Source: Bradyrhizobium sp. AZCC 2176
GTDB lineage: Bacteria > Pseudomonadota > Alphaproteobacteria > Rhizobiales > Xanthobacteraceae
DNA: 64,000 nucleotides
Direction of reading: 5' to 3'
NCBI RefSeq assembly: GCF_036924645.1
Contig: NZ_JAZHRX010000001.1
Location: 1,178,001 to 1,242,000 of the forward strand
Shown: in pieces, positions 8,420 through 23,950 of the stretch
Position numbering within the stretch: position 1 is the stretch's first letter
How the letters are laid out: the number at the start of each line of letters is the position of its first letter
Notes under the pieces: model-generated
Database searches by the model: none
Told to the model about the DNA's origin: nothing
What the model saw: the letters and a program-made list of their open reading frames with translations, nothing else
Program-made: the position numbers and the translations under genes

Positions 8420-8745
8420 GGATTACTCACCCGGCAATGCCGCTCGCTTGCGATGAACGAAAGCGGGGGGCGGGCTTTTCAGCCCTTGGAAGTGTTCGCG
8501 TAACCAAACGCCCCGGCTGGCACAAAGTTTCTGCCGTTTCGGAGGCTTGTTGGCGCACCAAAGCTGCCGGCCTGGATGATCCCGGGAGCGCCGATTTGCC
8601 GCGCAGGCTGCCCCGCCATTGAAACCAAACCTCCCTGTTCCCATTGTCAGAGGGCCGCAATCCAGGTGTCGCCACGGGCTTTCCTGGATCGGGCGAATGT
8701 GCCGACGCGGCTTCCCGTGAGAGGGTGTGCGCCCGGAGTTCAATC
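8420..8745. promoter_or_regulatory. divergent control region between the HtrA-like protease and ftsH
   Basis: This 326-bp gap holds no convincing gene. On the forward strand CATTGAAA (8617-8624) followed after 14 bp by TCCCATTG (8639-8646) resembles the heat-shock sigma-32 pattern (CTTGAAA / CCCCATNT), which would suit ftsH. The match is partial and the alphaproteobacterial consensus differs, so this is only a candidate. A GGAG stretch lies 9 bp upstream of the chosen ftsH ATG at 8746. Confidence 0.3.
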
Positions 8746-10587
8746 ATGAACAACAAGATGCGTTTCAACGTCGGATACGCGATCGCTGCAATCTTTGCCG
8801 TCTTCGTGATCCAGTACTTCATCTCCGCGGCGAGCCAGATCGCTATTATTCCCTACAGCGAATATCAACAATTGCTGAAACAGGGGAAAGTCGCGACCGT
8901 CGGCATCTCCGACCGCACGGTGCAGGGCACCCTGAAGGAGCCGCTGTCGGGCGGACAAAAGCAGTTCGTCACCACGCGGGTCGACCAGGAAACCGCGCAA
9001 GAGCTCGAGAAATACAACGTCCGCTTCACCGGCCAGATCGAGAGCACGTTCCTGCGTGACCTGCTGTCATGGGTCATGCCGGTGCTGCTGTTCTTCGGCC
9101 TGTGGTGGTACATCGCCAGACGCGCCGCAGAAGGTAGCGGCCTCGGCGGCGGCCTGATGGCGATCGGCAAGAGCAAGGCCAAAATCTACGTCGAGTCCGA
9201 TACCGGCGTGAACTTTTCCGATGTTGCCGGCGTCGACGAAGCCAAGGACGAACTGCGCGAGGTCGTCGACTTCCTGAAAAACCCGACCGACTACGGGCGG
9301 CTCGGCGGACGCATGCCCAAGGGCGTGTTGCTGGTCGGTCCGCCCGGCACCGGCAAGACCCTGCTGGCCAAGGCTGTCGCCGGCGAAGCCAAGGTACCAT
9401 TCTTCTCGATATCCGGTTCAGAGTTCGTCGAGATGTTCGTCGGCGTCGGCGCAGCGCGCGTACGCGATCTGTTTCAGCAGGCGCACCAGAAAGCTCCAGC
9501 GATCATCTTCATCGACGAACTCGATGCGCTGGGACGCGCCCGCGGCATTGGGCCCTTTGCAGGCGGACACGATGAAAAGGAACAGACGCTCAATCAGCTC
9601 CTGGTCGAACTCGACGGCTTCGACTCGCGGTCGGGGCTCATCATCCTGGCCGCGACCAACCGGCCGGAAATCCTCGATCCCGCACTGCTGCGTGCCGGCC
9701 GCTTCGATCGCCAGGTGCTGGTCGACCGCCCTGACAAGAAGGGCCGCGTTGAAATCCTCAAGGTGCATGCGAAAAAAGTGCAGCTTGATCCAGACGTCGA
9801 TGCCGAGGCCGTTGCGGCGCTCACGCCAGGTTTCACGGGTGCCGATCTCGCCAACCTGGTCAATGAAGCAGCCCTGCTCGCGACACGTCGCGGCGCCAGC
9901 GCGGTCGCGATGGCCGATTTCAACAACGCGGTCGAGCGTATGGTTGCCGGATTAGAGAAGCGAAACCGGCTTCTCAATCCGAAGGAGCGCGAGATCGTCG
10001 CCTATCACGAGATGGGCCACGCTCTGATTGCGCTGTCGCTGCCCGGTGTCGATGCCGTGCACAAGGTGTCGATCATTCCAAGGGGCGTCGGCGCGCTCGG
10101 CTATACCATCCAGCGCCCGATCGAAGATCGCTTCCTGATGACCAAGGAGGAGCTGGAGAACAAGATGGCCGTGCTGCTCGGCGGGCGCGCGGCGGAATTG
10201 ATCGTGTTCAATCATTTGTCCACCGGTGCCGCCGACGACTTGCGCCGCGTCACCGATATCGCCCGCAGCATGGTGACGCGCTACGGCATGTCGGAAAAGC
10301 TCGGCGGCGTCGCCTATGAGCGCGACCCAGGCAATTTTCTCGCGGGCGCCGACCGGCCCTACCCGGTTCGCGAGCGCGAATATGCCGACGAGACCGCCGC
10401 TTCCGTCGACGAAGAGGTCCGATCGATCGTCGATCGGGTGTTCGAGCGCGCGCAGGGCATCCTGAAAGCGCGACGCGCGATCCTGGATCGGGCAGCGAAG
10501 AAACTATTGGAGAAGGAGACCTTGGAGCAGAGCGATCTCGAGGCATTGATCCGCGAAACGCCGAAAGAGGCGCTGCGGGCCATTTAG
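8746..10587 (+). CDS. ftsH: ATP-dependent zinc metalloprotease FtsH
   Basis: A 613-aa inner-membrane AAA+ protease degrading misfolded membrane and some cytosolic proteins. Two membrane segments (about residues 10-30 and 106-124) flank a short periplasmic domain. The AAA module has Walker A GPPGTGKT (198-205), Walker B IIFIDELD (253-260) and the second region of homology [20 protein letters not shown] (303-322). The zinc site is HEMGH (421-425), a variant of the usual HEAGH that keeps HExxH. ATG 8746 was chosen because the membrane segment begins just after it and GGAG precedes it; an in-frame extension to 8644 lacks homology. This shortish copy may be a paralogue of the main FtsH. Confidence 0.92.
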
Positions 10588-10589
10588 GC

Positions 10590-11483
10590 TTATGCGAGAT
10601 CGCGCAGCGCCACCTCGACGGCCTTGCGCTCCTCGGCAGTCAGAGGTGCCTGCGGCGGGACCGGGTCGCCAACGGCGTAGCCCTGAATTTCGAGGCCTGC
10701 CTTGATACAGGCGGCGAGATTGAAACGCGCAAACGCTTCATTGATGCGCCACAGCTTACGTTGCAGCGCCATCGCCTCATCCCAGCGCGCCGCCTTGCAG
10801 AGGTTATAGAGCTCGACGCTCTGCCGCGGGATGATGCAGGCGGGGCCGGCCATCCAGCCCAAACCGCCGATCAGCATCACCGCCGCCGGGATATGGGCGG
10901 ATGCCGAGAACACTTTGATGCTGTCGCCGCAGCGGTTCATGATCGACAGCAGCCGGCCGGTATTGGTGGAGGCATCCTTGATGTGGCCGATGCGTGGATG
11001 GGTCGCGAGCCGCGCGATCACATCGAGCGTCAGGTCGGAGCGCTGGAATTGCGGGTTGGTGTAGATCACGACGGGAATGTCGACGGCGTCGGCAATGGCA
11101 CGGAAATAGCACTCGACCTGCGCGTCGGCCACCGGGAAATAGGCTTCCATGATCGCGAGAATGCCATCGGCGCCGAGTTTTTGATGCGCCTTTGCCTGCG
11201 CCACCGCATCCGCCGTCGACGTCGAAGCGACGCCGGCGATCACGGGCACGCGCCCCCTTGCGGCTTCGATCGTGGCTTGCACGACGGCCGCGCGCTGCGC
11301 CTGGTTGAGATAGGCGAATTCGCCGGTCGATCCGAGCGGCGTCAACCCGTGCACGCCCTCCTTGATGAGGTCGTCGCACAACCGGCCCAGCACTGCGGTA
11401 CGGATCTGGCCTGACGCATCGATGGGTGAGACCAGATAGGGAAAGACGCCGTGGAAATCAGCCATGGGAGGAAAATGCCTCAA
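10590..11483 (-). CDS. dihydrodipicolinate synthase/N-acetylneuraminate lyase family aldolase
   Basis: A 297-aa TIM-barrel class I aldolase. The pyruvate-binding loop is seen as [10 protein letters not shown], the active-site Tyr in VIYTNPQF and the Schiff-base Lys in GHIKDAST. The family includes DapA, sialic-acid lyase and several keto-sugar or aromatic aldolases; the sequence does not resemble housekeeping DapA closely enough to assign lysine biosynthesis. Its stop is 2 bp from that of ftsH (convergent). The start is uncertain: ATG 11483 or, more in keeping with homologues ([10 protein letters not shown]), ATG 11465. Confidence 0.85.
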
Positions 11484-11560
11484 GCGGGAAAGTCCTGATA
11501 GCCATGGCTATCCGGAATGCCGGTGCAAGGCAACGCTCCGCACGAATCGTGCGAACGGCT

Positions 11561-14227
11561 CTATCGTTTGCGCGCCTTGATCCACGCATCGATCACCGGC
11601 AGCGCACGGCCCTTGAGGTCGGCCGAAATCGCGATCGTCTCCTGCGCGCGGGCCGCCATCACGCGCCCGCCCGAGGTCGCCTGAACCGGTGCAAAGGCGG
11701 CGAGTTCGGCGGCATGAGCGTCATCGTTGAAGTTCGTCATGAAGTTCGCAACGAACTGGTCGCGGAACTGAGGCCCAAGCTTTGCGAACAACGCCGCGTA
11801 GTTCTTCTGCAGGAAGTCCCAGGCCAGATCCGGCTGCTCTCCCGATGACGCAACCGAATTGATCAGCCCGACGACGATCGTTCCCGGCACTTCATCCGTC
11901 AGAGTCAGCTCCAGCGTGGCATTCGCCAGCGCGGCGTCGCGCGCGCTGGCTGCAGCGTAGTAATAGCGCAGCCGCTCATTGGTGACGGTGCTCTTGCGCG
12001 CCAGCGCCAGCAGCGCATCGTAGGTCGCTCGATCAGCCGCGATGCCGACGACATGGGTGACGGAATCGCGCAACGCGCCGGATAAGGATTGCGGCTCGCG
12101 GAGGAAACCGGCGAACCGCCGCCTCGCTTCGGCGATGGCCTGCTCGTCGCCGAGTTCGCCGAGCATCCGGATCAGGCTGCCGCGCAGCAGGGTGGCGTCG
12201 TCATCACCGGAGCCGCCGCCATCCCAGCCGAGCCGGTCGAGCACCGGCCGCAATCGGGCGCTGATGTAGCGCTGCACGGCCGGGCGCTCGGTACGGCCGC
12301 GCGACAGACGATTGAGCGAGGAGAATACCGCAATGACCTGATCCCAAACCGCGCGGCGGTCATCGATGCTGATGGCCTCGGCCAGTTCAAGGTAGGATGG
12401 CGGCTCGGCGCGGCGCCCCTGCACCATCGCCCAGCTATCGGCCAGGAAATTGACGCGGTCGGCCGGTGACATCTGCGGCAGCGACTTCGCCAACGCCGCC
12501 CTGCTCCCCGGTCCGTACTCGACGCGGAAATAGCCGATGTCGCCGAGATTGACCTTGATCGCCTTATCGCAGGATCCGGCCGGAATCTCGGTGGAGCCTT
12601 GCAGCAGCACGACATCCGGCGATCGTGTCGCATCCACCGGCCCGACCGCGACCGGTACTTGCCAGGTGCGAGACGGCAGGGATGCGTCGCCGGCGCGCGC
12701 CGGCGCGATCACGAAACGGCCCTGCCGCAGCGTCAGCCGCTGAGCATCGCCGTTGCAGGCGGTTTCGGCCGATATCAACGGCACGCCATCCTGCTCGGTA
12801 AAGGAAACCGCGATATCGGTCACGGGCTTGTGACCCGCGCGCTCCAGCGCCCGCCAGAGATCGGCCGTGGTGGTGTTGCCATAGGCATGCGCGGCCATGT
12901 AGGCGCGGATGCCGTCACGGAACGCCGCTTCGCCGAGGTAATTTTCCAGCATGCGGATCAGCGCCTGGCCCTTGTTGTAGGTAATGGCGTCGAACGCGAT
13001 CATGGCCTCGCTCTCGTTGGCGACCGGCTGCTGGATCGGGTGCGTGGTGCGCCGAGCGTCGAGCGCCATGGCGAACTGCTTCTGGCCGTAACCGTTCAGC
13101 CAGCTTTGCCATTGCGGATAAAATTGCTCCGCGGCTTTCGTCGCCATCCAGGTCGCAAAGCCTTCGTTGAGCCAGAGATTGTCCCACCACGCCATCGTGA
13201 CGAGATCGCCGAACCATTGATGCGCCATCTCGTGCGCGATGATGGAAAAGATGCCGCGCCGCGCGCTGTCCGGACTTGTTGCGGGATCGAACAACAGCCG
13301 GCTCTCGAAGAAGGTGATGCCGCCCCAGTTCTCCATCGCGCCGCCGAAGCCGCCGGGCACCGCGATCAGATCGAGCTTGGGCAGCGGATACTTGACGCCG
13401 AAATAATCGTTGAACCAGCCAAGCAGTTTCGCTGCGCTATCGAGTGCGAATTGCCCTTTCGCAGCCTTGCCGATGGTGGCGACGACGCCGATCGTCACGC
13501 CTTCCGCTTCCACTGTGATGCGCTCCAGTTCGCCCACCGTCAGCACGAAAAGGTAGGTCGACATTTTCGGCGTGGGGGCGAAGGCGACGTTCTTCAGGTT
13601 CGGCTCCAGCGGCTCTTCGCGCACCACCGGCATGTTGCCGACCGCGAGGAAATGGCGCGGCACGCCTACGGTCAGGGCAAAACTCGCCTTGAAAGCCGGC
13701 TCGTCCCAGCATGGAAATATCCGCCGCGCGTCCGCCGGCTCGAGTTTGCTCGTCAACAGCCGCTTCATGCCGCCGTCGGTCGGATAGTCGACCAGGAAGA
13801 AACCGCGGTCGAACTTGTTGATCCGTGCCGCAAACTCGATGCGCAGCCGATGAGCGCCCACCGCGAGCGGCTGTGCGAACGTGAACGTCGCCGTCTCGGC
13901 GGCCGCATCGAGCGCGACATCGGCGCGTGCTGCGCCGTCATCCACGGTAACGGAAGCAAACGTCGTGTTGACGGCGTTGAGCGTCAGCCGTGCGGTCGGT
14001 TCGCGCACCTCGATGTCGATCACTTCGACGCCGGGAAGCGCAAGGCTCTCGGCGTCGGGTCTCAGCTCGATTGAATAGTTGATTGGAACGACCGTCTTCG
14101 GCAGCTTGCCCGGCGTGGAGTCGAAAGAAAACACCGGCTCGGCTCGAGCGGCGCCTGAAATAACTAGCATCAGTACGAGCATTGCGCCGAAACGACGCGT
14201 CAAGGGTGCCGTCTCGGTAAGCTTCAC
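11561..14227 (-). CDS. M1 family zinc aminopeptidase, exported
   Basis: An 888-aa gluzincin aminopeptidase that would remove N-terminal residues from peptides. A cleavable signal peptide is evident (hydrophobic core AMLVLMLVISGAARA, residues 15-29). The exopeptidase motif GAMEN is at 296-300, the zinc motif HEMAH at 332-336 and the third ligand Glu355 in NEGFATW. The C-terminal about 400 residues form the ERAP1-like helical domain. Its length matches secreted M1 enzymes of Proteobacteria such as the Caulobacter and Bradyrhizobium periplasmic peptidases. It is monocistronic and divergent from the heme peroxidase gene. Confidence 0.92.
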   Translation of the reverse strand: MKLTETAPLTRRFGAMLVLMLVISGAARAEPVFSFDSTPGKLPKTVVPINYSIELRPDAESLALPGVEVIDIEVREPTARLTLNAVNTTFASVTVDDGAARADVALDAAAETATFTFAQPLAVGAHRLRIEFAARINKFDRGFFLVDYPTDGGMKRLLTSKLEPADARRIFPCWDEPAFKASFALTVGVPRHFLAVGNMPVVREEPLEPNLKNVAFAPTPKMSTYLFVLTVGELERITVEAEGVTIGVVATIGKAAKGQFALDSAAKLLGWFNDYFGVKYPLPKLDLIAVPGGFGGAMENWGGITFFESRLLFDPATSPDSARRGIFSIIAHEMAHQWFGDLVTMAWWDNLWLNEGFATWMATKAAEQFYPQWQSWLNGYGQKQFAMALDARRTTHPIQQPVANESEAMIAFDAITYNKGQALIRMLENYLGEAAFRDGIRAYMAAHAYGNTTTADLWRALERAGHKPVTDIAVSFTEQDGVPLISAETACNGDAQRLTLRQGRFVIAPARAGDASLPSRTWQVPVAVGPVDATRSPDVVLLQGSTEIPAGSCDKAIKVNLGDIGYFRVEYGPGSRAALAKSLPQMSPADRVNFLADSWAMVQGRRAEPPSYLELAEAISIDDRRAVWDQVIAVFSSLNRLSRGRTERPAVQRYISARLRPVLDRLGWDGGGSGDDDATLLRGSLIRMLGELGDEQAIAEARRRFAGFLREPQSLSGALRDSVTHVVGIAADRATYDALLALARKSTVTNERLRYYYAAASARDAALANATLELTLTDEVPGTIVVGLINSVASSGEQPDLAWDFLQKNYAALFAKLGPQFRDQFVANFMTNFNDDAHAAELAAFAPVQATSGGRVMAARAQETIAISADLKGRALPVIDAWIKARKR

Positions 14228-14450
14228 GCAAAGCTCCTATTGCCAGCCGGCACAATGAGGTGCCGGATCATATAGCTGCATCGCCTGCCGCGGAACAGCC
14301 GGGAAAAACGCCGCGTCGCGCAGTTTCCGGCTGCCGCACATTGGCCCAAAGATGTCCACAGAAGTTCACAGGTTCTAACGATTTAACTCACGATAATTTC
14401 ACGACTTTCTCCGCAGTCTCGCTGCCCCAGCCAAGCGCGAGAGTAGTTTT
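14228..14450. promoter_or_regulatory. divergent intergenic region, aminopeptidase / heme peroxidase
   Basis: A 223-bp region with no gene. Its right half (14360-14450) is noticeably AT-richer than its surroundings and contains GATAAT (14392-14397) about 54 bp before the peroxidase ATG, a possible -10 element. No well-placed -35 or operator symmetry was recognised. Confidence 0.3.
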
Positions 14451-16199
14451 ATGGCTCTGCAGAACGTCGCTGACGCATCCTCTTTCCGAACTTCCGAGTT
14501 GGATACGCGCGACTCTGCTCGATCGCCGACAGCCCCCGGCTTTCGTCATTTCCTTGGCAGTCCGGCCGCCTCGCAGCGCTTTCGCGCATTCGGTGCCGAC
14601 CCACTGAGTTCGCCTGCGGTCCTCCCCGACCTGCGGAGGCTGATGCAGCGTCTGTCACGCCGGATGGACGCCGCCATACGCTGGCCTTCACATGGCTACG
14701 GATCCGCGGAGCACTGGGAGAACCCGTTGATACCTTCCGGGTATACCTATCTGCTGCAATTCGTGGCGCATGATCTGGTTCATTCGGCGATCCCGCTTTC
14801 GGTCGCGGGAGGTCTCGGCGGCGGGACCGCGAACGCGCGCCGCACACCGCTTCGGCTGGAGACGCTGTATGGCAGCGGCCCGGTCGGATCCCCGCACATC
14901 TATGCACTCGACGCACCGAATGACGACCGCCGCACCAAGCTGCGGCTCGGGCGAATGCGCTGGAAGGAGAACGAGCCCGCAACCGGATGCCCATTCCGCG
15001 ACATCGCGCGGACCCCTGCGGAGAATGTGACGGGGATCGACCGCAGCATCGCAGGTGTCCGCGTTGCCCTCACCGAGGCGCTGGTCGCCGATCCGCGCAA
15101 TGACGATCACGCCGTCATGTCGCAGCTCACCGCGCTGTTCGCACTGCTGCACAACGGGCTCATTGATATCATTCGCCGTAATGAAGGCAACGCGGGGCCA
15201 AATGGTCAGTTCGGTGCCGCCTACAAGCGCTTCTTGTGCGCCCGCGGCGCACTGACGGCCATCTATCACAACATCATCCGCAACGACCTGATGCGGCGGG
15301 TGATCCATCCGGCGATCTACGCGGTTTATCACGGACCTAGCCCCGACTTTATCGAGCGCCCCCATTCCACCGGAGGCTTTGCGACCGGCGACTGGGAAGT
15401 CCCCTTCGAGTTCTCGCACGGCGCGTTTCGCTTCGGCCATGCCATGGTGCGGCACGAATACCAGATCAATGACCTGTCCCTCCACGACCTCAATAACACG
15501 CTTGAAAAATCCTCCCTGAACGATCCTGTCAACATGCCGCTCGACGAGACGTGGATGGTCCAGTGGTCGCGCTTCTTCGAGATCAACGGATCGAAGCCGA
15601 ATTTCAGCCGGCGCATCGGACCCTATCTGAGCGACGGTCTCGGCAACGACCAGATGTTTCCCGCGTTCGACGAAACCGAACGCGTAGGCCTGCTCTATCG
15701 TGACCTGCTCGGCGCCGGCCTCGCCGGCATGTGGTCGGTAGACGCACTGATTGCCGAGATCGGTCGCAGACGGCCGCATCTCATCGCCATGTCGCGCCTG
15801 CTTGCCGACCGCGCCTATCGTGTCGATCAACTTCGCGAATGGCTGGCCGCCGCGCCTGCATATGGCGCGCTGACGGCTGAGGACATCGAAACGCTTTCGA
15901 ACGAGCCGCCGCTGCCTTTCTTCATCCTGTTTGAAGCGATGCGGCAACCGAACGCCGAGGGCCTGCGCCTCGGCCCGCTCGGTTCAATTATCGTCTCGGA
16001 AGTCATCTTTGGCGCGCTCGCGGGCGACCCGCGGCGCGCGGACAGCGGCTCGCTTGCCGGACAACTGGCGGCTATTTCCAGCGAATTTTATCCGGCAAAC
16101 GTACTTCAGGGCATTCCCGATATCTCAAGCATGGCGCAGCTGGTGGAGTTCACCACCGAAATAGCCGAGCTGCAGCATGCCGTGCCTGCATTCTTGTGA
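14451..16199 (+). CDS. animal-type heme peroxidase family protein
   Basis: A 582-aa member of the peroxidase-cyclooxygenase superfamily. The distal His motif is LLQFVAHDLVH (about residues 102-112) and the proximal His lies in AFRFGHAMVRHEYQ (about residue 328), both in the expected order and spacing. The acidic residue that esterifies heme in mammalian peroxidases (D in DHD) is Ala here, so heme is probably bound without that covalent link. No signal peptide is visible; the N-terminus is polar, which suggests a cytoplasmic enzyme or non-classical export. It is followed by a 10-bp hairpin and the gene for a 136-aa protein, likely co-transcribed. It lies next to a YcaO gene and a SARP regulator, which suggests a role in a modified-peptide or oxidation system. 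Confidence 0.85.
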   Translation: MALQNVADASSFRTSELDTRDSARSPTAPGFRHFLGSPAASQRFRAFGADPLSSPAVLPDLRRLMQRLSRRMDAAIRWPSHGYGSAEHWENPLIPSGYTYLLQFVAHDLVHSAIPLSVAGGLGGGTANARRTPLRLETLYGSGPVGSPHIYALDAPNDDRRTKLRLGRMRWKENEPATGCPFRDIARTPAENVTGIDRSIAGVRVALTEALVADPRNDDHAVMSQLTALFALLHNGLIDIIRRNEGNAGPNGQFGAAYKRFLCARGALTAIYHNIIRNDLMRRVIHPAIYAVYHGPSPDFIERPHSTGGFATGDWEVPFEFSHGAFRFGHAMVRHEYQINDLSLHDLNNTLEKSSLNDPVNMPLDETWMVQWSRFFEINGSKPNFSRRIGPYLSDGLGNDQMFPAFDETERVGLLYRDLLGAGLAGMWSVDALIAEIGRRRPHLIAMSRLLADRAYRVDQLREWLAAAPAYGALTAEDIETLSNEPPLPFFILFEAMRQPNAEGLRLGPLGSIIVSEVIFGALAGDPRRADSGSLAGQLAAISSEFYPANVLQGIPDISSMAQLVEFTTEIAELQHAVPAFL

Positions 16200-16219
16200 A
16201 GCGGAATCCTCCGCTTCAC
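16196..16219 (+). promoter_or_regulatory. intercistronic hairpin after the peroxidase stop
   Basis: GTGAAGCGGA (16196-16205) and TCCGCTTCAC (16210-16219) are perfect 10-bp complements with an ATCC loop. The left arm contains the TGA stop of the peroxidase gene, and the structure ends about 20 bp before the ATG of the small downstream gene. There is no U-tract after it, so it looks more like an RNA-processing or stabilising element, or an attenuator, than a full terminator. Confidence 0.65.
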
Positions 16220-16239
16220 GCAACCCGGAGAGTGAAGCT

Positions 16240-16650
16240 ATGGCAATCGAAAGAATGCAAGTGACCAACCATGAGCGCTGGGGCAATCTGGTGAAGACAT
16301 GGTCCACCGGCAAGAACTACCTCGACGACGACAACGAGTACCCGATCCCGACCACCGTCGACGAATTCAAGGAGCAGCTTGCCAAGGCCCAAGTGTTCAT
16401 GACGGTGCCGGAACGGTTCAAGAAGGTAAAGTTCGTCGAACAGGAGATGGACACGATCGTGGTGCGTCTGCCGCCGGCCGTGATGATCGCGGATTCCGAA
16501 GAAAGCCTCAAAAAGCCAGGCGCGACCTATCCGCTTCCGCCGTTCTACAAGCGCCTGTTCAACGGCCTGGACCCGGTGATTCCGGAAAGCGACAAGTTCC
16601 GCGTGCATGCCGAACGCGTCGGGGACTACACCATCAGCTACTGTGCCTGA
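16240..16650 (+). CDS. 136-aa protein with an NHLP/nitrile-hydratase-like segment; candidate RiPP precursor or peroxidase partner
   Basis: ATG 16240 follows GGAGAGTGAAGCT, a good ribosome site; an upstream in-frame ATG at 16177 lies inside the peroxidase gene. The product has no signal peptide or membrane segment. Residues 42-79 read as a helix (EFKEQLAKA) followed by VPERFKKVKFVEQEMDTIVV and RLPP, which resembles by eye the leader of nitrile-hydratase-derived (NHLP) peptide precursors, where a helix is followed by a beta strand ending in LPP. YPLPPFYKR (97-105) also recalls the nitrile hydratase alpha YPWP...LPP.WYK region. The only Cys is Cys135, the penultimate residue (TISYCA). It may be co-transcribed with the heme peroxidase and sits close to a YcaO gene. 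The RiPP assignment is a hypothesis; the sequence could equally be a peroxidase accessory protein. Confidence 0.7.
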   Translation: MAIERMQVTNHERWGNLVKTWSTGKNYLDDDNEYPIPTTVDEFKEQLAKAQVFMTVPERFKKVKFVEQEMDTIVVRLPPAVMIADSEESLKKPGATYPLPPFYKRLFNGLDPVIPESDKFRVHAERVGDYTISYCA

Positions 16651-16654
16651 TGAT

Positions 16655-18766
16655 CTAGCTCCGCGTTAGGTACGTGATGCCATCGACAGGAAGCCCTCCG
16701 CCACGCAAACTTTGGCGCAGGGCTTCCCACCGCTCCTTCACGCTGATGGGATGCGCCTGCATAACCCAGCGCGCCGCCGCCTCGTCTGTCGGGGTGGAGG
16801 AGCCGACCCAGAATGAACGCAGGCCGTTCACGAAGCGCTGGACTTCCTGCTGCGCTCGCACGCGCTCCCCGAGCTGGAACAGCGCGGCGGCCCGCCATGC
16901 CGGCAGCACCTTGTTGATGCCTTGCGCGCGATCGCACGCTTCGATAGTTCCCTCGTAGTCGCCGCAGAAGAAGCGCACAGTGCCATGATAGGCCCATTCC
17001 AGATAGGAGGGCGCGGGTGAAAGTGCGAGCGACCGCTCGGCGCGAACGCGGGCATCGTCGATCGATCCGCAGATTGCCGAGTAGTGCGCACTGGATAGCA
17101 ACGTCCATGGATCGTTGTCGTTGAGTTCGCAGGCGAGCGCCATATGTGGCGCGGCTTCCGCTTCGCGAAGCGCCATTACATAAGACCAGCCGCAGCACAG
17201 ATGCGCCCTGGAATCGACCGGGTCCAGTTGAACGGCGGTCTTCGCCAGTTCGAGGGTAGCCTTCGCCTTGTCGAGATCGCGGAAGATTCCAGGATGCACT
17301 AGATGCTCGATATTATTCATTTGCACGAGGCTGCTGTAGCAGGGAGAGAACCCCGGATTGTCGCGGATCGCATCGCGGAAGATGGCGACCGCCCGCCGCC
17401 AGCTTTCGGGATCGAATTTCGACATGAGATTCTGTCCGCGCAGCCAGCGGTCGTGCAGGTCGAGCGACACGTCAGGCTCGCCGGCGAGCCGCATCAGGCG
17501 TTCGGTCGAGAGCTGCACGTTCAGCGCGGTCGCGATGCGGCGGATGATACGCTGTTGCGTTTCGAACCAGTTGCCCAGGCCGAGCCGGAAGCTCTCGCTC
17601 CAGACGTAGATCCCGGTGGTATCGTCGCGCAGCACCATTACAATGTTGATCTCGGGCCCCGCCTGGTAAGCGGTGGTTTCGATGCAGTATTGCGGCGCCG
17701 AATCGGGCGCGGGAAGCACGACGGCGGCCGGCGGACGGTCGACGACGCTCCATTCGCGGAAGCGTACGAGACAGGCGGCAAGATGCTGGGAGAACCCCTG
17801 CACCAGATGGCTATGGTCTTCATCGACGCCGTGCATCGCAAAGGGGCGCAGCACGAGGCGCGTCTTCGCGGGCGGATTGGCCGCTGGCGTGATCGGGACC
17901 ACCGGCTGCGGGGCGCTCCCCCTGACCATCCTGACGGCGAATTCGTCATTCGCTGCCGACGCGGCCCGATCGGCCGGCGCGCGCTCCAGAATGCCGAGCT
18001 TGATGTTGGCGACGAGTTCTTCGGTGGCTGACGACGGCTCCATCGCGTAGTCACGGTCCAGCAGATCCCACAGCGCCTTGTAAATGCGTAGCGCACCGGC
18101 GACATCGCCCTCTTCCGCATGCGCCCGCATCAGATAGCGGCAGGCATATTCGTGGGTCGGATCGAGATTGACGATCGCGGCCGCGATCCGCTTCTTGGCG
18201 TCGGCGGGAACGCTTGCGGAGGTCAAGCCTTCATCAAGGTTTCGCATCAACCGTTCATGGATGGTCTGGCGCTTGGCCAGAACCCAAACCCGGAATGACG
18301 GGTCGAGATCGTCCATGCCTTCGAGCAGCCGCCCGTCGAGTTGCGGCGTATCGAGCAGCAGCGGGTGAACGCGTCCGCCTTCGGCGAGTTGAATCACGTT
18401 TTCGATATCGACTTCGATCCGTCCGACGTCGATGCCGATCATCAGCCGCTCCGCGACGAAGCCGTCATATCCGGCCTCCTCCAGCATCGACCGCAACTCG
18501 CGAACGACCTGGCGCAGCGAGGCACGCGCTTTTTCCTCGTCCGAACGACTCCAGAACAGGCCGACCAGCCGCTCACGGCTTTCCTGCTTCGCCTCCAACA
18601 ATGCGAGGTAGCTCAGGACCGCACCCGCTTTACGGGTTCGCAGTTCAATCGGCCGGCCGTTGAACCGCACGCCCAGCCGCCCGACCAGCGATACCGACAG
18701 ACGCGGGGCGCCTTCCGGCGCCGCCGTGGCGTTGTCTGCTGTGATGGCGTTTGCACTGGCCGGCAT
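16655..18766 (-). CDS. SARP/BTAD-type transcriptional activator with C-terminal TPR region
   Basis: A 703-aa regulator. Residues about 24-115 form an OmpR/SARP-like winged helix (LVGRLGVRFNGRPIELRTRK, then SYLALLEAKQESRERLVGLF, SLRQVVRELRSML). Residues about 120-270 match the bacterial transcriptional activation domain (YLMRAHAEEGDVAGALRIYK). The middle (LVLRPFAMHG to EWSVVDRPP) resembles the module linking regulators to TPR arrays in cyclase-like proteins. TPR-like helices fill residues about 440-690. SARPs commonly activate natural-product clusters in actinobacteria; the fused TPR form is frequent in rhizobia. It lies 38 bp after the YcaO gene on the same strand, so it is probably in its operon, and converges with the 136-aa gene (4-bp gap). 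Confidence 0.85.
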   Translation of the reverse strand: MPASANAITADNATAAPEGAPRLSVSLVGRLGVRFNGRPIELRTRKAGAVLSYLALLEAKQESRERLVGLFWSRSDEEKARASLRQVVRELRSMLEEAGYDGFVAERLMIGIDVGRIEVDIENVIQLAEGGRVHPLLLDTPQLDGRLLEGMDDLDPSFRVWVLAKRQTIHERLMRNLDEGLTSASVPADAKKRIAAAIVNLDPTHEYACRYLMRAHAEEGDVAGALRIYKALWDLLDRDYAMEPSSATEELVANIKLGILERAPADRAASAANDEFAVRMVRGSAPQPVVPITPAANPPAKTRLVLRPFAMHGVDEDHSHLVQGFSQHLAACLVRFREWSVVDRPPAAVVLPAPDSAPQYCIETTAYQAGPEINIVMVLRDDTTGIYVWSESFRLGLGNWFETQQRIIRRIATALNVQLSTERLMRLAGEPDVSLDLHDRWLRGQNLMSKFDPESWRRAVAIFRDAIRDNPGFSPCYSSLVQMNNIEHLVHPGIFRDLDKAKATLELAKTAVQLDPVDSRAHLCCGWSYVMALREAEAAPHMALACELNDNDPWTLLSSAHYSAICGSIDDARVRAERSLALSPAPSYLEWAYHGTVRFFCGDYEGTIEACDRAQGINKVLPAWRAAALFQLGERVRAQQEVQRFVNGLRSFWVGSSTPTDEAAARWVMQAHPISVKERWEALRQSLRGGGLPVDGITYLTRS

Positions 18767-18804
18767 GCAACGGTTCCGGAACCGGTTGGTTAATTCCAGC
18801 CAGT

Positions 18805-20166
18805 CTATATCAAAGAAACACCGCCGGTATAGGTTGCGCCGCCTCCGGTTGCCGCAATCGCATCGTGCAGTCTGGCCGTGATGATTTCGGATGGCTCGAG
18901 TTGCAGGCCTGGGGCGATGACGCGGACCACCGGAACGGCAAAGCGCTGGCGCGTGAGATCAAGGCAAAATGTCTCGATTCCCAGCTTCTCCAAACGCTGT
19001 ACGATCAATCCAAACATGACGCTCGCTTCAGTTGCGTGAAGCGGCAGATGGGAAGCGTGCTCCGCGACCGGCTGCAGCAGTCTGCACTGACCGGCATCGA
19101 TCGCCGCGCGCTGCAGGTGGATGCGATCCTGGGCGTTGAGCGCGTCATCGCCGCGCTCACTTCGTTTGGTCATGACGACGGCGTCGGCCAGTTCGAGCTG
19201 ACACATTTCGAGCGTAGCCGAGCGGGCGGCGGCCTCGAGCGCCGGCCGCGCGGCAAGGCCGAAGGCAAAACCGGAACCGTCCGCCCGGCAGGAGACGGCC
19301 GCGACGCAGGGCACGCCGATATCCGTCGTGATATCGAGCAGCCATGTCCGGCGCTGCACCGATGCGCCGTGCCGGAGCTGCCGCAACAAACCTTCCGCCA
19401 CGATGCCGGCTTCATGCTGCGGCGGAATCGATCGGGCCAATTGGCCGCCCCGCCACCACAGGCTGGCCGCATCACGCTCGATCAATTCCAGCAGGCCGTG
19501 CAGCGCTGCAGCGTCACGCGACGGACCGGCGGCCGATCCGATGCTCAAGGGAAATGGCGGCGCGAAGTCGCGCTGCGCCAGCGGACGCCGCAGGCAAATG
19601 TCCGCCGGAAGCCACACTTCGCCTCCGTCGGTCAGCCTCGTTGCGCGACACCAGGAAAGCGCTCGCTCCGGTTGCATGCGGCGTTCCGAAACGGCAGCCA
19701 CCAACTCCAGCGCCTTCGGACCGAGTTTTCCGGCCCAGTCGTCGACGCCGGGTTTGAGCAACAGGTCGGTGCCAGTCTGCAATTGAGAAAGATACTCGAC
19801 CCCCTCGCCGATGCAGCCCTGAAATGCTTCCCGCAACGTCAGGCCGACACCTGAGACGCCGACCATCGGGCTTCCGTCGTGCAACGGATCGGCGAGCGCC
19901 GGATCGAATTGCGCACCAAAGCTGAGCAGGCCGGGCGCGTCGGGCGCGGCCAGTTCGAACACCCGCGCAAACCGGGAAGCCGCGATCAGCAAATGAGCGC
20001 GATTCGCGGTCTCCGAATCAATCCGGTTGCCGGATTCCGCGGCATATTCCAGCGCGCGCAGGATATGTCCGGCATCGCCATCACTCGCGGCGTCTACTTC
20101 GTTGCCGAGAAGCAACGATGCCGCGCGTGCAAACAATTCCTGCATCGAATTTTCGGTACCGCTCAC
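18805..20166 (-). CDS. YcaO family (TOMM-type) ATP-dependent peptide-modifying enzyme
   Basis: A 453-aa YcaO protein. YcaO enzymes use ATP to phosphorylate a peptide backbone amide, giving azolines, thioamides or amidines. The nucleotide-binding Glu pairs are visible: E121-x-x-E124 in GEGVEYLS and the strongly conserved LLELIERDA (225-233). The helix ATLEMCQ (317-323), LDITTDIGVPCVAAVS and PVVRVIAPGLQ near the C-terminus also match the TOMM/SagD-type group. There is no fused E1-like domain, no proline-rich PxPxP tail and no neighbouring TfuA, ThiF/E1-like or SagB-like gene, so partner proteins must be elsewhere or absent. It is upstream of the SARP gene (38-bp gap) and divergent from an unknown 184-aa gene. 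Confidence 0.87.
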   Translation of the reverse strand: MSGTENSMQELFARAASLLLGNEVDAASDGDAGHILRALEYAAESGNRIDSETANRAHLLIAASRFARVFELAAPDAPGLLSFGAQFDPALADPLHDGSPMVGVSGVGLTLREAFQGCIGEGVEYLSQLQTGTDLLLKPGVDDWAGKLGPKALELVAAVSERRMQPERALSWCRATRLTDGGEVWLPADICLRRPLAQRDFAPPFPLSIGSAAGPSRDAAALHGLLELIERDAASLWWRGGQLARSIPPQHEAGIVAEGLLRQLRHGASVQRRTWLLDITTDIGVPCVAAVSCRADGSGFAFGLAARPALEAAARSATLEMCQLELADAVVMTKRSERGDDALNAQDRIHLQRAAIDAGQCRLLQPVAEHASHLPLHATEASVMFGLIVQRLEKLGIETFCLDLTRQRFAVPVVRVIAPGLQLEPSEIITARLHDAIAATGGGATYTGGVSLI

Positions 20167-20234
20167 GGTGACCTCACGACTTGACGCGCAGACTCCGGAC
20201 GAGAGGCCAGCCCGCCCTCGCCCCGGAGGAACTT
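20167..20234. promoter_or_regulatory. divergent promoter region, YcaO / 184-aa protein
   Basis: The 68-bp gap must carry both promoters or one shared region. TTGACG (20181-20186) could be a -35 element, but no matching -10 is obvious. CGGAGGA (20224-20230) is the ribosome site of the forward gene. Confidence 0.3.
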
Positions 20235-20789
20235 ATGCTCGCGAAAGCCTTAGTCATAGCCATGGCAGCAGATATTGCCCGTTCAGATTATGCCAAGCCG
20301 ACCTTGATTCGCAGCCGCAGCCGCGAGTGGCTGATCGCCTGCCGTTGGGGACCGGAGGGCGAATATCTCTCGATCGCGACGGCTGGCCCGATCACGGAGC
20401 CTCTCGCACTGGTTGCACCGCAAATGATCGCACCGATCCATAGCCTGGTCGGCGTGCTGGTTTCCGAATCGGAATCGCAATCCACCAGCACGTTTCTGTT
20501 GGTGCGCCAGTTGCCTGCTGCGATCGAGCTTGCCGGCACATTTTTTCCGGCCGATGGCTACGTGCTGTTGCAGGACCACGGCGATATCCATCTCGTCTGC
20601 AAGGCGCGCTATTCACATAGCTGCGGCTGGCTCGACGGCAAGGAGATCCGCAAGGACATTCCCGATCCGGCCCCCTATTCGGCCGAGGCAATGTGCTGGC
20701 ATATCGAAGCGACGCGACGCGACTGGATCGGCGAGTTCATTCCCGGCAGCAGGCCGCCGGAGCGGCTTGCGATTCGCGCGACCGGTTGA
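20235..20789 (+). CDS. hypothetical protein linked to the YcaO gene
   Basis: ATG 20235 is preceded by CGGAGGA at ideal spacing, giving 184 aa; a TTG start at 20181 is less likely. The product has no membrane segment or recognisable domain. It is a mixed alpha/beta protein with strands such as LIRSRSREWLIACRWG, FLLVRQLPAAIELAG and YVLLQDHGDIHLVC, and a C-terminal WHIEATRRDWIGEF. It is divergent from the YcaO gene, and the pairing suggests a shared system. Its last 53 bp overlap the tail-to-tail XRE regulator gene. Function unknown. Confidence 0.7.
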   Translation: MLAKALVIAMAADIARSDYAKPTLIRSRSREWLIACRWGPEGEYLSIATAGPITEPLALVAPQMIAPIHSLVGVLVSESESQSTSTFLLVRQLPAAIELAGTFFPADGYVLLQDHGDIHLVCKARYSHSCGWLDGKEIRKDIPDPAPYSAEAMCWHIEATRRDWIGEFIPGSRPPERLAIRATG

Positions 20790-21303
20790 CGCCTGTGATC
20801 GCACCACCGGGAAATGGGGCGGCATGGGATTGCCGCTCGTCTTCCTGCGGAAGACTATCCTCGCTAGGTAACCTCCGCTGCTCACCACGATCGACGATAT
20901 TGAGACGCGCAACCGTGGCCTTCGCCCTGAGAGTTCGACCGGCGATGCTTTCAACCAGCCTTGCGATGCAAAGCCGCACGCGCGGACTGGTCGTTCGCGC
21001 ATAAGCCTTGAGAACGCGCAAGGCGCCAGGCTCGGCGAGCAAGTGAACCGGTGAATTCAAGCCGGGAGATTCAGCTCGGGAAGATTCGAACAACTCGCCG
21101 ACCGAAACGCCCAGCACGGAAGCGATTTGCGACAAACGGCTGGCGCCAACCCGGTTCGTGCCCCGCTCATACTTCTGCACATGTTGAAAGGTAACGCCGA
21201 TTCGTTCCGCAAGCATGGTTTGGCTCATGCCGCGGTCGACCCGAAATATGCGAATCCTCGCGCCCACCATCGCATCGAGCGGGCCACACGTCCTCGTCGC
21301 CAT
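20737..21303 (-). CDS. XRE family helix-turn-helix regulator
   Basis: A 188-aa protein with an N-terminal Cro/CI HTH (residues about 12-68): IRIFRVDRGMSQTMLAERIG, then FQHVQKYERGTNRVGASRLS and IASVLGVSVGELF. This type, with QHVQKYERG, is abundant in rhizobia at about 140 aa; here the C-terminal part after about residue 140 is low-complexity and runs into the 3' end of the convergent 184-aa gene, so the stop may have been lost and the tail extended. It may regulate the neighbouring YcaO/peroxidase island or itself; no operator was identified. Confidence 0.82.
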   Translation of the reverse strand: MATRTCGPLDAMVGARIRIFRVDRGMSQTMLAERIGVTFQHVQKYERGTNRVGASRLSQIASVLGVSVGELFESSRAESPGLNSPVHLLAEPGALRVLKAYARTTSPRVRLCIARLVESIAGRTLRAKATVARLNIVDRGEQRRLPSEDSLPQEDERQSHAAPFPGGAITGVNRSRESQAAPAACCRE

Positions 21304-21362
21304 GGGCAGGCTCCCAACTGTTCAAGCTGGGAGCCTAACACAACCTCAGGGACCTGCGGGCG

Positions 21363-21689
21363 CTAATTTGCGATCACAGGAAGCGCTTTTACGCGCTGCT
21401 CGATCTCGACGTGGTCAATCGTCAGCCGGCCTTTCGGGTCGATCGCCGCCTTCATGGCCGGCGGGTGGCCGGTTTCGAGAAAGTGCTGCAGGACGGCACG
21501 GCTCTCGTCCGAAAGCGCAAACAGCCCGCGCATCAATTCAAAGAATCCCGGTTCTTCCGCCACATAGAGCAGTTCGCGCAATTCCGCGCCGGTATATTGT
21601 CCCAATGCCGTCAAAAGCCATTCGGTTTGGTCATTCGGATCGCTCTCAGGCACGCGATTCAGATAGTAGACAACCGATTCCGCACTCAT
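21363..21689 (-). CDS. conserved hypothetical protein
   Basis: A 108-aa acidic, mostly helical soluble protein without signal or membrane segment. Visible features are VVYYLNRVPESDPNDQTEWL near the N-terminus and a helical middle (RELLYVAEEPGFFELMRGLF). It lies upstream of the XRE gene on the same strand with a 59-bp gap and may be co-transcribed. No family was recognised. The reading frame has ordinary codon use for the region, supporting a real gene. Confidence 0.6.
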   Translation of the reverse strand: MSAESVVYYLNRVPESDPNDQTEWLLTALGQYTGAELRELLYVAEEPGFFELMRGLFALSDESRAVLQHFLETGHPPAMKAAIDPKGRLTIDHVEIEQRVKALPVIAN

Positions 21690-21953
21690 TTCATCCCCCG
21701 GTACCTCGATAGCCCACAGGCCCCCCGCTCCCGGACGGCTTTCTGGCAGCTAACTCCCGAGCCTAACATTGCTTGGGCCTTCGTGATTTCAGCGTGATCG
21801 CAAACGCGGCAGCGCACGAAACTCAATTCCGCAGTTCCCGCCTGGGAGTGTGCCGAACCGGTGCAGTCAGTCAGGTGCAGCCTGGCGCAGTATTCTTCCG
21901 CCGCACGACCGCCACCGGGGTTTTCCGTTGCCCCCAACCGCCTAACCCCGAAG

Positions 21954-23594
21954 TTAGAAGACCTTCGCGATGGCGCGCTGCGCGTCCTGCTGAATCGCCT
22001 TCAGATGGCTCTGGTCCCGGAAACTCTCGGCGTAGATCTTGTAGACGTCTTCGGTGCCCGATGGACGCGCGGCGAACCATCCCGCCTCGGATTCAACCTT
22101 GATGCCGCCAAACGACTGATCGTTACCCGGTGCCCGGGTCCTGATCGCGCTGACCGGATCGCCGGCGAGCTGGCGCATGTCGAGTTGCTCCGGCGCGAGC
22201 GCCTTCAGTGCGCTTTTCTGTTTCGGCGTCGCCGGCACGTCGATCCGCTCGTAGTGGGGCACGCCGAGTTCGGCTGTGAGGGTGGCGAACAACTGGCTTG
22301 GGTCGCGGCCGGTGCGCGCCAGGATTTCGGCGGCGAGCAGTCCCATCACCATGCCGTCCTTGTCGGTCGTCCAGACCGAGCCGTCGCGCTTGAGGAACGA
22401 CGCGCCGGCGCTTTCCTCACCGGCCAATCCGAACGCACCGGTGCCGAGGCCTTCGACGAACCATTTGAAGCCGACCGGGGTTTCGACCAGCTTGCGGTTC
22501 AACTTCCTTGCGACACGGTCGATGATCGAGCTGGAGACGATGGTTTTGCCGATCGCAGCCTCGCTGCCCCATTGCGGCCGATGCTCGAACAGATAGGCGA
22601 TCGCAGCCGCAAGAAAATGATTCGGGTTCATCAAGCCGCCGGTGCGCGTCACGATGCCGTGCCGATCGGCATCGGTGTCGTTGGCAAAGGCGACGTCGAA
22701 TCTGTCGCGCATCGCAATGAGGCTCGCCATCGCGAACGGCGAGGAACAATCCATGCGGATTTTTCCATCCCAGTCCGCCGTCATGAAACGGAACGTCGGA
22801 TCGACGGCGTCATTGACGATGGTCGCATCGATTCCATAACGCTCGATCAGCGGCGCCCAGTAGTGAACGGCCGCGCCGCCGAGCGGATCGATGCCGATCT
22901 TGACGCCGGAGGACTTGATCAGCGCCATGTCCAAGGCATTGCCGAGATCGGCGATGTAGGGACTGACGTAGTCGTGCCGATGCGTCGTGGGCGCCTTGCG
23001 GGCGCGCGCATACGGCATCCGCGCAACGCCCTTCATGTCGGCTTCCATGTAGGCGTTGGCGGCCTTTTCGACCTTGGCCGTCACGTCGGTGTCGGCCGGG
23101 CCGCCATGCTGCGGATTGTATTTGTAGCCGCCATCCTCGGGCGGATTGTGCGAGGGCGTGATGACAACGCCATCGGCAAATCCGCTCGTGCGACCCTTGT
23201 TGTAGCTCAGGATCGCATGCGAGATAACGGGCGTCGGCGTGTAACCGCCGTGCGCGTCGACCATGATGTCGACACCGTTGGCCGCAAACACTTCCACGGC
23301 GCTCGCCAGCGCGGGCTCGGCGAGCGCGTGGGTATCGATGCCGACGAACAGCGGGCCGGTCAGCCCGGTTTCACGGCGGTGGTCGCAGATCGCCTGCGTC
23401 GTCGCCAGGATATGATTTTCGTTGAACGAGTTCTTCAGCGAGGTCCCGCGATGCCCCGAGGTTCCGAAGGCAACGCGCTGCGTGGGATCGGACGGGTCCG
23501 GTTTCGACGCGAAATAGGCCGTGACCAACTGCGGCACGTTGACGAGGGAGGCTGGATCGACCGGTTTGCCGGCAGCAGGATTGGGGGCAGTCAC
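21954..23594 (-). CDS. pgm: phosphoglucomutase (alpha-D-glucose phosphate-specific)
   Basis: A 546-aa enzyme interconverting glucose-1-phosphate and glucose-6-phosphate, feeding glycogen and exopolysaccharide synthesis. The catalytic phosphoserine loop is FGTSGHRGTSLKNSF (residues about 43-57), the metal-binding loop is NDTDADRHGI, and sugar binding is seen in GEESAGASFL. The C-terminal phosphate-binding loop is RPSGTEDVYKIYAESF. Length and motifs match the bacterial Pgm of the E. coli type rather than phosphomannomutase. It is monocistronic. Confidence 0.95.
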   Translation of the reverse strand: MTAPNPAAGKPVDPASLVNVPQLVTAYFASKPDPSDPTQRVAFGTSGHRGTSLKNSFNENHILATTQAICDHRRETGLTGPLFVGIDTHALAEPALASAVEVFAANGVDIMVDAHGGYTPTPVISHAILSYNKGRTSGFADGVVITPSHNPPEDGGYKYNPQHGGPADTDVTAKVEKAANAYMEADMKGVARMPYARARKAPTTHRHDYVSPYIADLGNALDMALIKSSGVKIGIDPLGGAAVHYWAPLIERYGIDATIVNDAVDPTFRFMTADWDGKIRMDCSSPFAMASLIAMRDRFDVAFANDTDADRHGIVTRTGGLMNPNHFLAAAIAYLFEHRPQWGSEAAIGKTIVSSSIIDRVARKLNRKLVETPVGFKWFVEGLGTGAFGLAGEESAGASFLKRDGSVWTTDKDGMVMGLLAAEILARTGRDPSQLFATLTAELGVPHYERIDVPATPKQKSALKALAPEQLDMRQLAGDPVSAIRTRAPGNDQSFGGIKVESEAGWFAARPSGTEDVYKIYAESFRDQSHLKAIQQDAQRAIAKVF

Positions 23595-23695
23595 ATGACC
23601 TCACGGAATAAGTGGTTTCGCCTGACTATACGTAGAAGCGATGGCATGGGCAAAGTTGAGCATGGCACCTCCGACGCAAGCCGATGCAGCCACCT

Positions 23696-23950
23696 CTAGT
23701 AAACGTTGCGCTGCCGAGACAGTTTCCTGTCGCCGTGCGCGAAATATGGGTTGTTCAGGCACTGCGCCGCGCGGCCCGATGCAGATGCCGCGCACTGCGC
23801 CAGCGAAGTAAAGCTGCAGTCGATATAATTGCCGTCAATGCCGTAGGTTTGCAGGCAAACCGGGTAGCTTGGATCATAGGTCTGGGCGCGCGCGGGCGCG
23901 ACGACCAGCATCGTTCCGACTGTTAGAATTGCGGAAGCCAATGGGCGCAT
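23696..23950 (-). CDS. DUF3551-type small secreted protein
   Basis: The product is 84 aa from ATG 23950, which follows GAAGGA. It has a signal peptide (PLASAILTVGTMLVVAPARA, cleavage after A-R-A-Q) and a Cys-containing mature part (YPVCLQTYG, DCSFTSLAQCAASASGRAAQ, CLNNPYF). The pattern of about four Cys with a conserved aromatic/Pro C-terminus is the DUF3551 family, which is expanded in Bradyrhizobium and relatives. The role is unknown; disulfide-bonded periplasmic proteins are likely. Confidence 0.8.
   Translation of the reverse strand: MRPLASAILTVGTMLVVAPARAQTYDPSYPVCLQTYGIDGNYIDCSFTSLAQCAASASGRAAQCLNNPYFAHGDRKLSRQRNVY

Follow-up and report, generated by a model that had tools for sequence, protein, structure and literature searches.

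In a 64,000-nucleotide window from Bradyrhizobium sp. AZCC 2176, part of a 7.15-Mb single-contig genome, four neighbouring genes encoding an animal-type heme peroxidase, a small protein, a SARP/BTAD-TPR regulator and a lone YcaO form one module. An earlier reading, made from the sequence only, had pointed to these four genes, and all were confirmed within positions 14451-20166 by open reading frames (ORFs) and their translations. We lean, by a modest degree, towards a pathway resembling those of ribosomally synthesised and post-translationally modified peptides (RiPPs), in which YcaO modifies the penultimate cysteine of a folded carrier and the peroxidase oxidises the product. More tentatively, the module may represent a new class, widespread in Alphaproteobacteria, in which a lone YcaO and an animal-type heme peroxidase build a cysteine-derived group on the second-last residue of folded carriers that differ in structure. 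The product would be intracellular and cofactor-like or signalling, not an antibiotic for export, and the pathway would be switched by the SARP through TxACG-N6-TxACG sites. The sequence-only reading had also proposed a RiPP-like function; this is now supported by a penultimate cysteine that does not vary and by an operator common to the units, while the chemistry is unproven.

The same reading would have been contradicted if the peroxidase/small-protein pair and the YcaO/SARP pair occurred independently of each other in related genomes. Instead, both pairs were found together. The small protein was detected in 33 of 117 same-genus genomes (E ≤ 0.001). The YcaO clade (E ≤ 1e-58) and the SARP (E ≤ 1e-150) were present in exactly these 33 genomes, with best matches elsewhere of 2e-21 and 3e-45, respectively. 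The peroxidase (E ≤ 3e-89) was found in 32 of the 33, the exception being G088; the other 84 genomes had none, their best match being 2e-22. By coordinates, the island genes are adjacent in the 33 genomes, unless a contig ends between them. At order level, the small-protein profile recovered 22 of 297 genomes, all with a linked YcaO gene, intact or decayed. Conversely, 21 of the 23 order genomes holding a clade YcaO (at least 119 bits) contain the small protein; in G153 the contig ends beside the YcaO gene. Twenty wider loci were compared, 19 of them from the 22 order genomes and one (G648) from a phylum draw. SARP and YcaO are encoded in all 20 (YcaO decayed in L081 and split over two frames in L079), the peroxidase in 17 (not in L071-L073; spread over two frames in both L079 and L080).

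A scan of named genomes with the pattern [VFL][HQ][AS][ERA]R[IV]G[DE]Y[TS], a pattern that covers the tail motif of the small protein without its cysteine, yielded 45 loci, among them those of Acetobacteraceae, Rhodopila, Nisaea and Desertibaculum. SARP was encoded in 44, YcaO in 41 and a strong peroxidase in 43. Regarding the YcaO gaps, three contigs end first, and the Rhodopila YcaO (40% identical, the only one found in that genome) lies 3.4 kb past the locus edge on the same contig. In Mesorhizobium huakuii, Paroceanicella profunda and Phaeobacter inhibens, plasmids encode SARP, YcaO and a small or mid-sized protein together with a protein annotated as 'peroxidase family protein'. The block was thus met again in Hyphomicrobiales, in Acetobacteraceae and on plasmids of Rhodobacterales. 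The M1 peptidase and FtsH-like genes at its flanks were seen in some Bradyrhizobium-type loci only (9 and 12, respectively) and in no divergent locus over 13 kb. Across 21-23 selected loci, the four proteins diverge in step, with correlated distances for every pair (r 0.55-0.87, Mantel p 0.001). This supports a coupling of the genes but does not prove it, because shared species history is expected to account for part of the correlation.

A common regulation is suggested by the upstream sequences. The BTAD domain of the regulator scored 37.3 bits (cut-off 22.1); the OmpR-type DNA-binding model PF00486 stayed under its cut-off (19.7 against 26.2 bits), and Pfam gave no match for a NOD domain. 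Alignment of upstream regions from Bradyrhizobium-type loci revealed two conserved blocks: TCACGATnATTTCACG precedes the peroxidase, and TCACGnTnnnCTCACG stands between ycaO and the adjacent gene p202. Both are direct TCACG repeats with an 11-bp period. For SARP targets, PMC10936776 gives repeat spacings of 11 or 22 bp. TCACG-N6-TCACG was found three times in the window, always in the island, against 0.23 expected, and none of 100 shuffles reached three. Genome-wide, 14 sites were counted (three for the reversed control pattern), of which three fall within 7.4 kb. We then searched up to 400 bp upstream for a generalised operator, TxACG-N6-TxACG, whose two repeats agree in the base at position 2. 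Four duplicate loci were excluded, as were loci that had too little sequence upstream or no recognised small gene. Of the rest, 25 of 25 close loci and 31 of 43 others carry the site 5' of the peroxidase (or the small gene), although L026 among the 43 is really of the close type and several of the Acetobacteraceae loci are near relatives of each other. By 2-mer block shuffles, 0.05 and 0.07 were expected by chance. Upstream of the peroxidase, the half-sites switch jointly to TGACG (L027, L110, L116) or TAACG (L074, L075, L125), with the 11-bp period kept. These candidate operators would be bound by the SARP. Three operators of one type tie the unit together, and it extends beyond the four genes to p202 and probably to orf108; the latter is a likely regulon member, since the third window operator precedes it. 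Ratios of nonsynonymous to synonymous substitution (dN/dS) against six relatives were 0.12-0.15 for the peroxidase, 0-0.29 for the small protein, 0.05-0.12 for the SARP (one value discarded), 0.15-0.22 for YcaO and 0.04-0.15 for p202, consistent with purifying selection on all five.

The YcaO protein, the only one found in this genome, matched PF02624 with 170 bits. In an alignment of 69 family members, residues E121, E227, E230, E320, Q323 and E325 do not vary; we take them to be of the ATP-site type, in agreement with the intact Glu pairs described earlier. More specific models gave matches below their cut-offs, namely the SagD-type model TIGR03604 (122 bits, cut-off 219.25) and the NCBIfam McrA thioamidation model (70.3 bits, cut-off 365). 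By sequence, the closest solved structures are TruD and LynD, heterocyclases that form azolines. Translation probably starts at the in-frame ATG at 20145 and not at the listed GTG, because the latter falls inside operator 2. As noted before, no E1/ocin-ThiF-like partner, TfuA, SagB dehydrogenase or exporter gene is adjacent. Pfam scans of 13 ORFs (8644-23699) revealed neither an E1/ocin-ThiF-like protein with a RiPP recognition element (RRE), nor a flavin mononucleotide (FMN) dehydrogenase, nor TfuA; the rest of the genome was not searched for the first two. In two other loci, a Rieske-type ring-hydroxylating oxygenase (PF00848) adjoins YcaO (L078 12163-13488 and L131 10200-11048). For the L078 copy, the nearest model is that of a glycine betaine monooxygenase, with a score under the model cut-off; the oxygenase is a possible third tailoring enzyme.

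The peroxidase of the island is a divergent member of PF03098, as judged from profile matches. It scored 23.8 bits, 1.2 bits under the curated cut-off of 25, and all 15 aligned family members matched PF03098 at E ≤ 0.01 (best 3.2e-18). The family profile retrieved lactoperoxidase 8s6c (E 3e-6), whereas a single-sequence search with the peroxidase returned no solved relative. Q103, H107, D108, R216 and H330 are invariant; for Q103, H107, R216 and H330 this holds in 82 sequences. Presumably, the Gln/His, Arg and His correspond to the distal Gln/His, catalytic Arg and proximal His of myeloperoxidase.

The small protein had no match above any Pfam or NCBIfam cut-off. Its AlphaFold2 model is compact (pLDDT 89.7), with the tail following a C-terminal helix. 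Foldseek gave no match at E ≤ 0.001, and a separate VIA fold comparison covered 37 chains only. Divergent domains are about 20-45% identical to the window protein. In contrast to this divergence, the 73 distinct tails that match the small-protein profile all end in Arg-x3-Tyr-x4-Cys-x; the profile includes the tail, so that this count carries some selection. In these 73 tails, cysteine is penultimate and neither the Arg (C-9) nor the Tyr (C-5) varies, with 12 kinds of last residue and 15 kinds at C-1. Neighbours found by position, outside the profile, also end in Cys-x: L133 (ITKCR), L137 (LFGCR), L138 (VRGCR), L141 (FTRCR) and L144 (TNMCD). L144 has the Tyr without the Arg, and the other four keep Cys-x alone. 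Two weak profile matches, L140 (MSRCK, 24 bits) and L142 (LQHCD, 31 bits), keep the Arg/Tyr spacing. L135 (LKRCR) was picked by searching for Cys-x ends, and no convincing partner was found in L129, L130 and L131. Tandem small-protein genes (at about 9980-10900) occur in L110 (Bradyrhizobium ivorense), L112 (the L027 locus; B. jicamae SZCCT0215) and L116 (B. sp. JYMT SZCCT0180), and both copies keep the tail.

The sequence-only reading had described an NHLP-leader-like segment in this protein; NHLP membership is not established. TIGR03793 and TIGR03795 gave no match up to E 10, the 136 residues contain no Gly-Gly, and the conserved tail leaves no hypervariable core. Comparison with an NHLP-like set by hhalign gave probabilities of 3.4% and 11%. 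Weak similarity was limited to a sister lineage, where L138 and L134 reach the NHLP model with 15 bits (E 0.015-0.017, cut-off 50.9).

These data can be combined into a proposed pathway. The SARP-TPR would bind the TCACG-N6-TCACG direct repeats and turn on several transcription units jointly: peroxidase with small protein, ycaO with the gene of the SARP itself, p202 and, for Bradyrhizobium, also orf108. Folded into a stable domain, the small protein would present the tail R-x3-Y-x4-Cys-x-COOH. The lone YcaO may then dock on this domain and activate, with ATP, the peptide carbonyl before the penultimate cysteine, most likely closing a thiazoline there. Docking of this kind was described for an NHLP leader and MprC (PMC12455567); that enzyme has an RRE domain, unlike the island proteins, in which none was recognised. 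The heme peroxidase would oxidise the sulfur-containing group to a thiazole, an S-oxide or a coupled product, which may remain on the carrier or be cut out by an unlinked protease. Gene content, linkage, the tail, the operator and purifying selection are direct observations, whereas the small protein as YcaO substrate, the thiazoline, the peroxidase step and SARP binding are all inferred. C135 is the proposed site because of the conservation pattern, and oxidation is the simplest role for the peroxidase because an oxidase accompanies the block in most loci.

Several observations weigh against this pathway. A linked peroxidase was not found in L024/L121, L025 and L071-L073, and that of L029/L118 is weak and of a different kind. 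The earlier proposal that the peroxidase takes the place of a flavin dehydrogenase is therefore not established, since a few otherwise complete loci lack it. Four same-genus loci have a broken or split ycaO (L026 12075-12256, L031 6473-9355, L032 10428-11787, L081 10705-11133) and still retain small protein, SARP and operator. In L032 a sequencing error is possible, and two genomes with a broken ycaO (G102, G327) hold a second YcaO of the clade elsewhere (L025, L129). G122 encodes YcaO and SARP, and no small protein was found there. Close small-protein orthologs are 76-100% conserved over the full length, unlike a hypervariable RiPP core, and the motif lies partly inside a predicted helix (116-132). 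Pfam scans recognised no protease or exporter among the island genes. In the sister lineage g61 (7 of 8 genomes), an NHLP-like precursor ends in GCxRPxx, with the Cys five residues from the end; this SARP/YcaO system is found at L134 (8074-8526) and L145-L151. The operator was not found within 400 bp in 12 of the 43 divergent loci (L023, L025, L028, L068, L070, L071, L072, L073, L076, L078, L127, L132), of which L068 and L076 have sites farther out. Finally, 32 divergent sites showed no consensus for the -10 element, which would be expected to follow the 3' repeat by 8 bp. Whole-protein conservation, the missing exporter and protease, broken ycaO genes and peroxidase-free loci caution against a standard RiPP antibiotic and better fit an intracellular modified protein or a scaffold role.

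Other explanations were weighed against the same data. YcaO enzymes also make thioamides and amidines. YcaO could therefore install one of these at the tail, with C135 acting as nucleophile or metal ligand and the peroxidase working elsewhere or in redox protection. We consider this unlikely. The family is capable of both changes, the McrA model does match, and neither a partner protein of thiazole/oxazole-modified microcins (TOMMs) nor a flavin dehydrogenase is among the scanned ORFs; yet TfuA is missing from the same ORFs, TIGR03604 scores higher than McrA (also under its cut-off), TruD and LynD are the best PDB relatives by sequence, and the penultimate cysteine is strict. It is similarly improbable that the small protein serves as a scaffold or adaptor for a true substrate encoded elsewhere, its Cys-x tail being used for docking or for heme or metal binding. 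Full-length conservation, the confident predicted fold and the lack of Gly-Gly and of a linked protease would suit such a role, but very divergent domains keep the terminal cysteine at a fixed distance from the C-terminus, and the tandem duplicates of L027/L112, L110 and L116 both retain it.

Still less credit is given to a Tyr-Cys thioether, in which the peroxidase would crosslink Tyr130 to Cys135 and YcaO would perform a separate step. Both residues are invariant in the 73 profile-recognised tails. Against this, a peroxidase occurs without Tyr at C-5 in L133 (T), L135 (L) and L141 (F), and the Tyr occurs without a linked peroxidase in L024, L025 and L071-L073. Because both kinds of loci exist, oxidation centred on the cysteine appears favoured over the crosslink. 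That two unrelated gene pairs stand together by chance is close to negligible: we found no evidence for it, and it is already contradicted by identical genome sets, a shared operator, co-divergence and unconserved flanks. The cysteine modification by YcaO followed by peroxidase oxidation stays the reading we prefer.

Compared with known systems, we class the island as a new variety of YcaO-dependent modification system, and not as an NHLP or classical TOMM member, because defining features of both were looked for and not found. With TOMMs and linear azol(in)e RiPPs it shares an ATP-dependent YcaO beside a precursor-like protein with a cyclisable Cys and an oxidase in the cluster. It differs in having no recognised partner or RRE protein beside YcaO, a heme peroxidase in contrast to an FMN dehydrogenase, a single terminal Cys on a folded, fully conserved carrier, and no recognised exporter or protease. 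NHLP/proteusin precursors (TIGR03793, TIGR03795; MprE/MprC, PMC12455567) likewise have a long folded leader offering a short C-terminal target to YcaO; the window protein has no family match, hypervariable core or obtained fold match, and weak similarity was confined to a sister lineage of the same YcaO/SARP type. According to Haft 2010 (PMC2887384), the Burkholderia NHLP model has a short 11-residue suffix and no motif 2. Stand-alone YcaO systems such as bottromycin also have YcaO without a C partner, as discussed in PMC4603692, but no radical-SAM methyltransferase was among the ORFs scanned here. The regulator resembles SARP regulators such as AfsR (PMC10936776) in the BTAD domain, the C-terminal repeat region and the direct repeats of 11-bp period before its targets. 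It differs in its alphaproteobacterial origin, the TxACG-N6-TxACG operator, the lack of a matched NOD and its YcaO/peroxidase targets. With the peroxidase-cyclooxygenase superfamily (lactoperoxidase, myeloperoxidase) the island peroxidase shares the PF03098 region with invariant Gln/His, Arg and His; it differs in scoring just under the Pfam cut-off and in being genetically tied to YcaO. In the open-access literature searched, we found no published pairing of an animal-type heme peroxidase with a lone YcaO, no heme peroxidase as YcaO partner, and no pathway aimed at a single, fixed penultimate cysteine of folded proteins as divergent as these. If true, the proposed system would provide a new oxidase type in YcaO chemistry and a compact system of two enzymes acting on one target residue. 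It would also extend SARP-type control beyond actinomycetes, with operators that can be read from the sequence, and its regulon and operator would help to find members annotated only as hypothetical proteins.

Features of the island and its surroundings in the 64,000-nucleotide window
Feature	Position	Strand	Remark
Operator 1, TCACG-N6-TCACG	14388..14403	+	47 bp 5' of peroxidase ATG; conserved in orthologous loci
Animal-type heme peroxidase, 582 aa, proposed oxidase	14451..16199	+	PF03098 E 2e-5
Small carrier/precursor protein, 136 aa from likely start 16240	16240..16650	+	without known family
C-terminal motif R126-V-G-D-Y130-T-I-S-Y-C135-A136	16615..16647	+	proposed modification site C135
SARP/BTAD-TPR regulator, 703 aa	16655..18766	-	BTAD E 4.4e-9
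Lone YcaO, 453 aa from GTG (likely ATG start 20145)	18805..20166	-	PF02624 E 9.3e-50
Operator 2, TCACG-N6-TCACG, between ycaO and p202	20163..20178	+	window site count and conserved block
p202, 184 aa from ATG, predicted all-beta barrel	20235..20789	+	
HTH_3 (Cro/C1-type) protein, membership uncertain	20737..21303	-	HTH_3 E 8.4e-15; 3' of orf108, same strand
orf108, 108 aa	21363..21689	-	likely regulon member (operator 3 upstream)
Operator 3, TCACGCTGAAATCACG	21782..21797	-	92 bp 5' of orf108

orf108 had no Pfam match and, among the loci compared, was seen in Bradyrhizobium-type loci only. The Cro/C1-type protein sits between p202 and orf108 and overlaps the end of p202 tail to tail. Its gene is kept in most, not all, Bradyrhizobium-type loci, and the C-terminal part is poorly conserved among orthologs. 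Adjoining the island, two long ORFs overlap on opposite strands (21861-23699 on the plus and 21954-23594 on the minus strand). The minus ORF encodes a phosphoglucomutase/phosphomannomutase. The plus ORF is probably spurious, because the minus frame is better conserved (88-95% against 65-78%).

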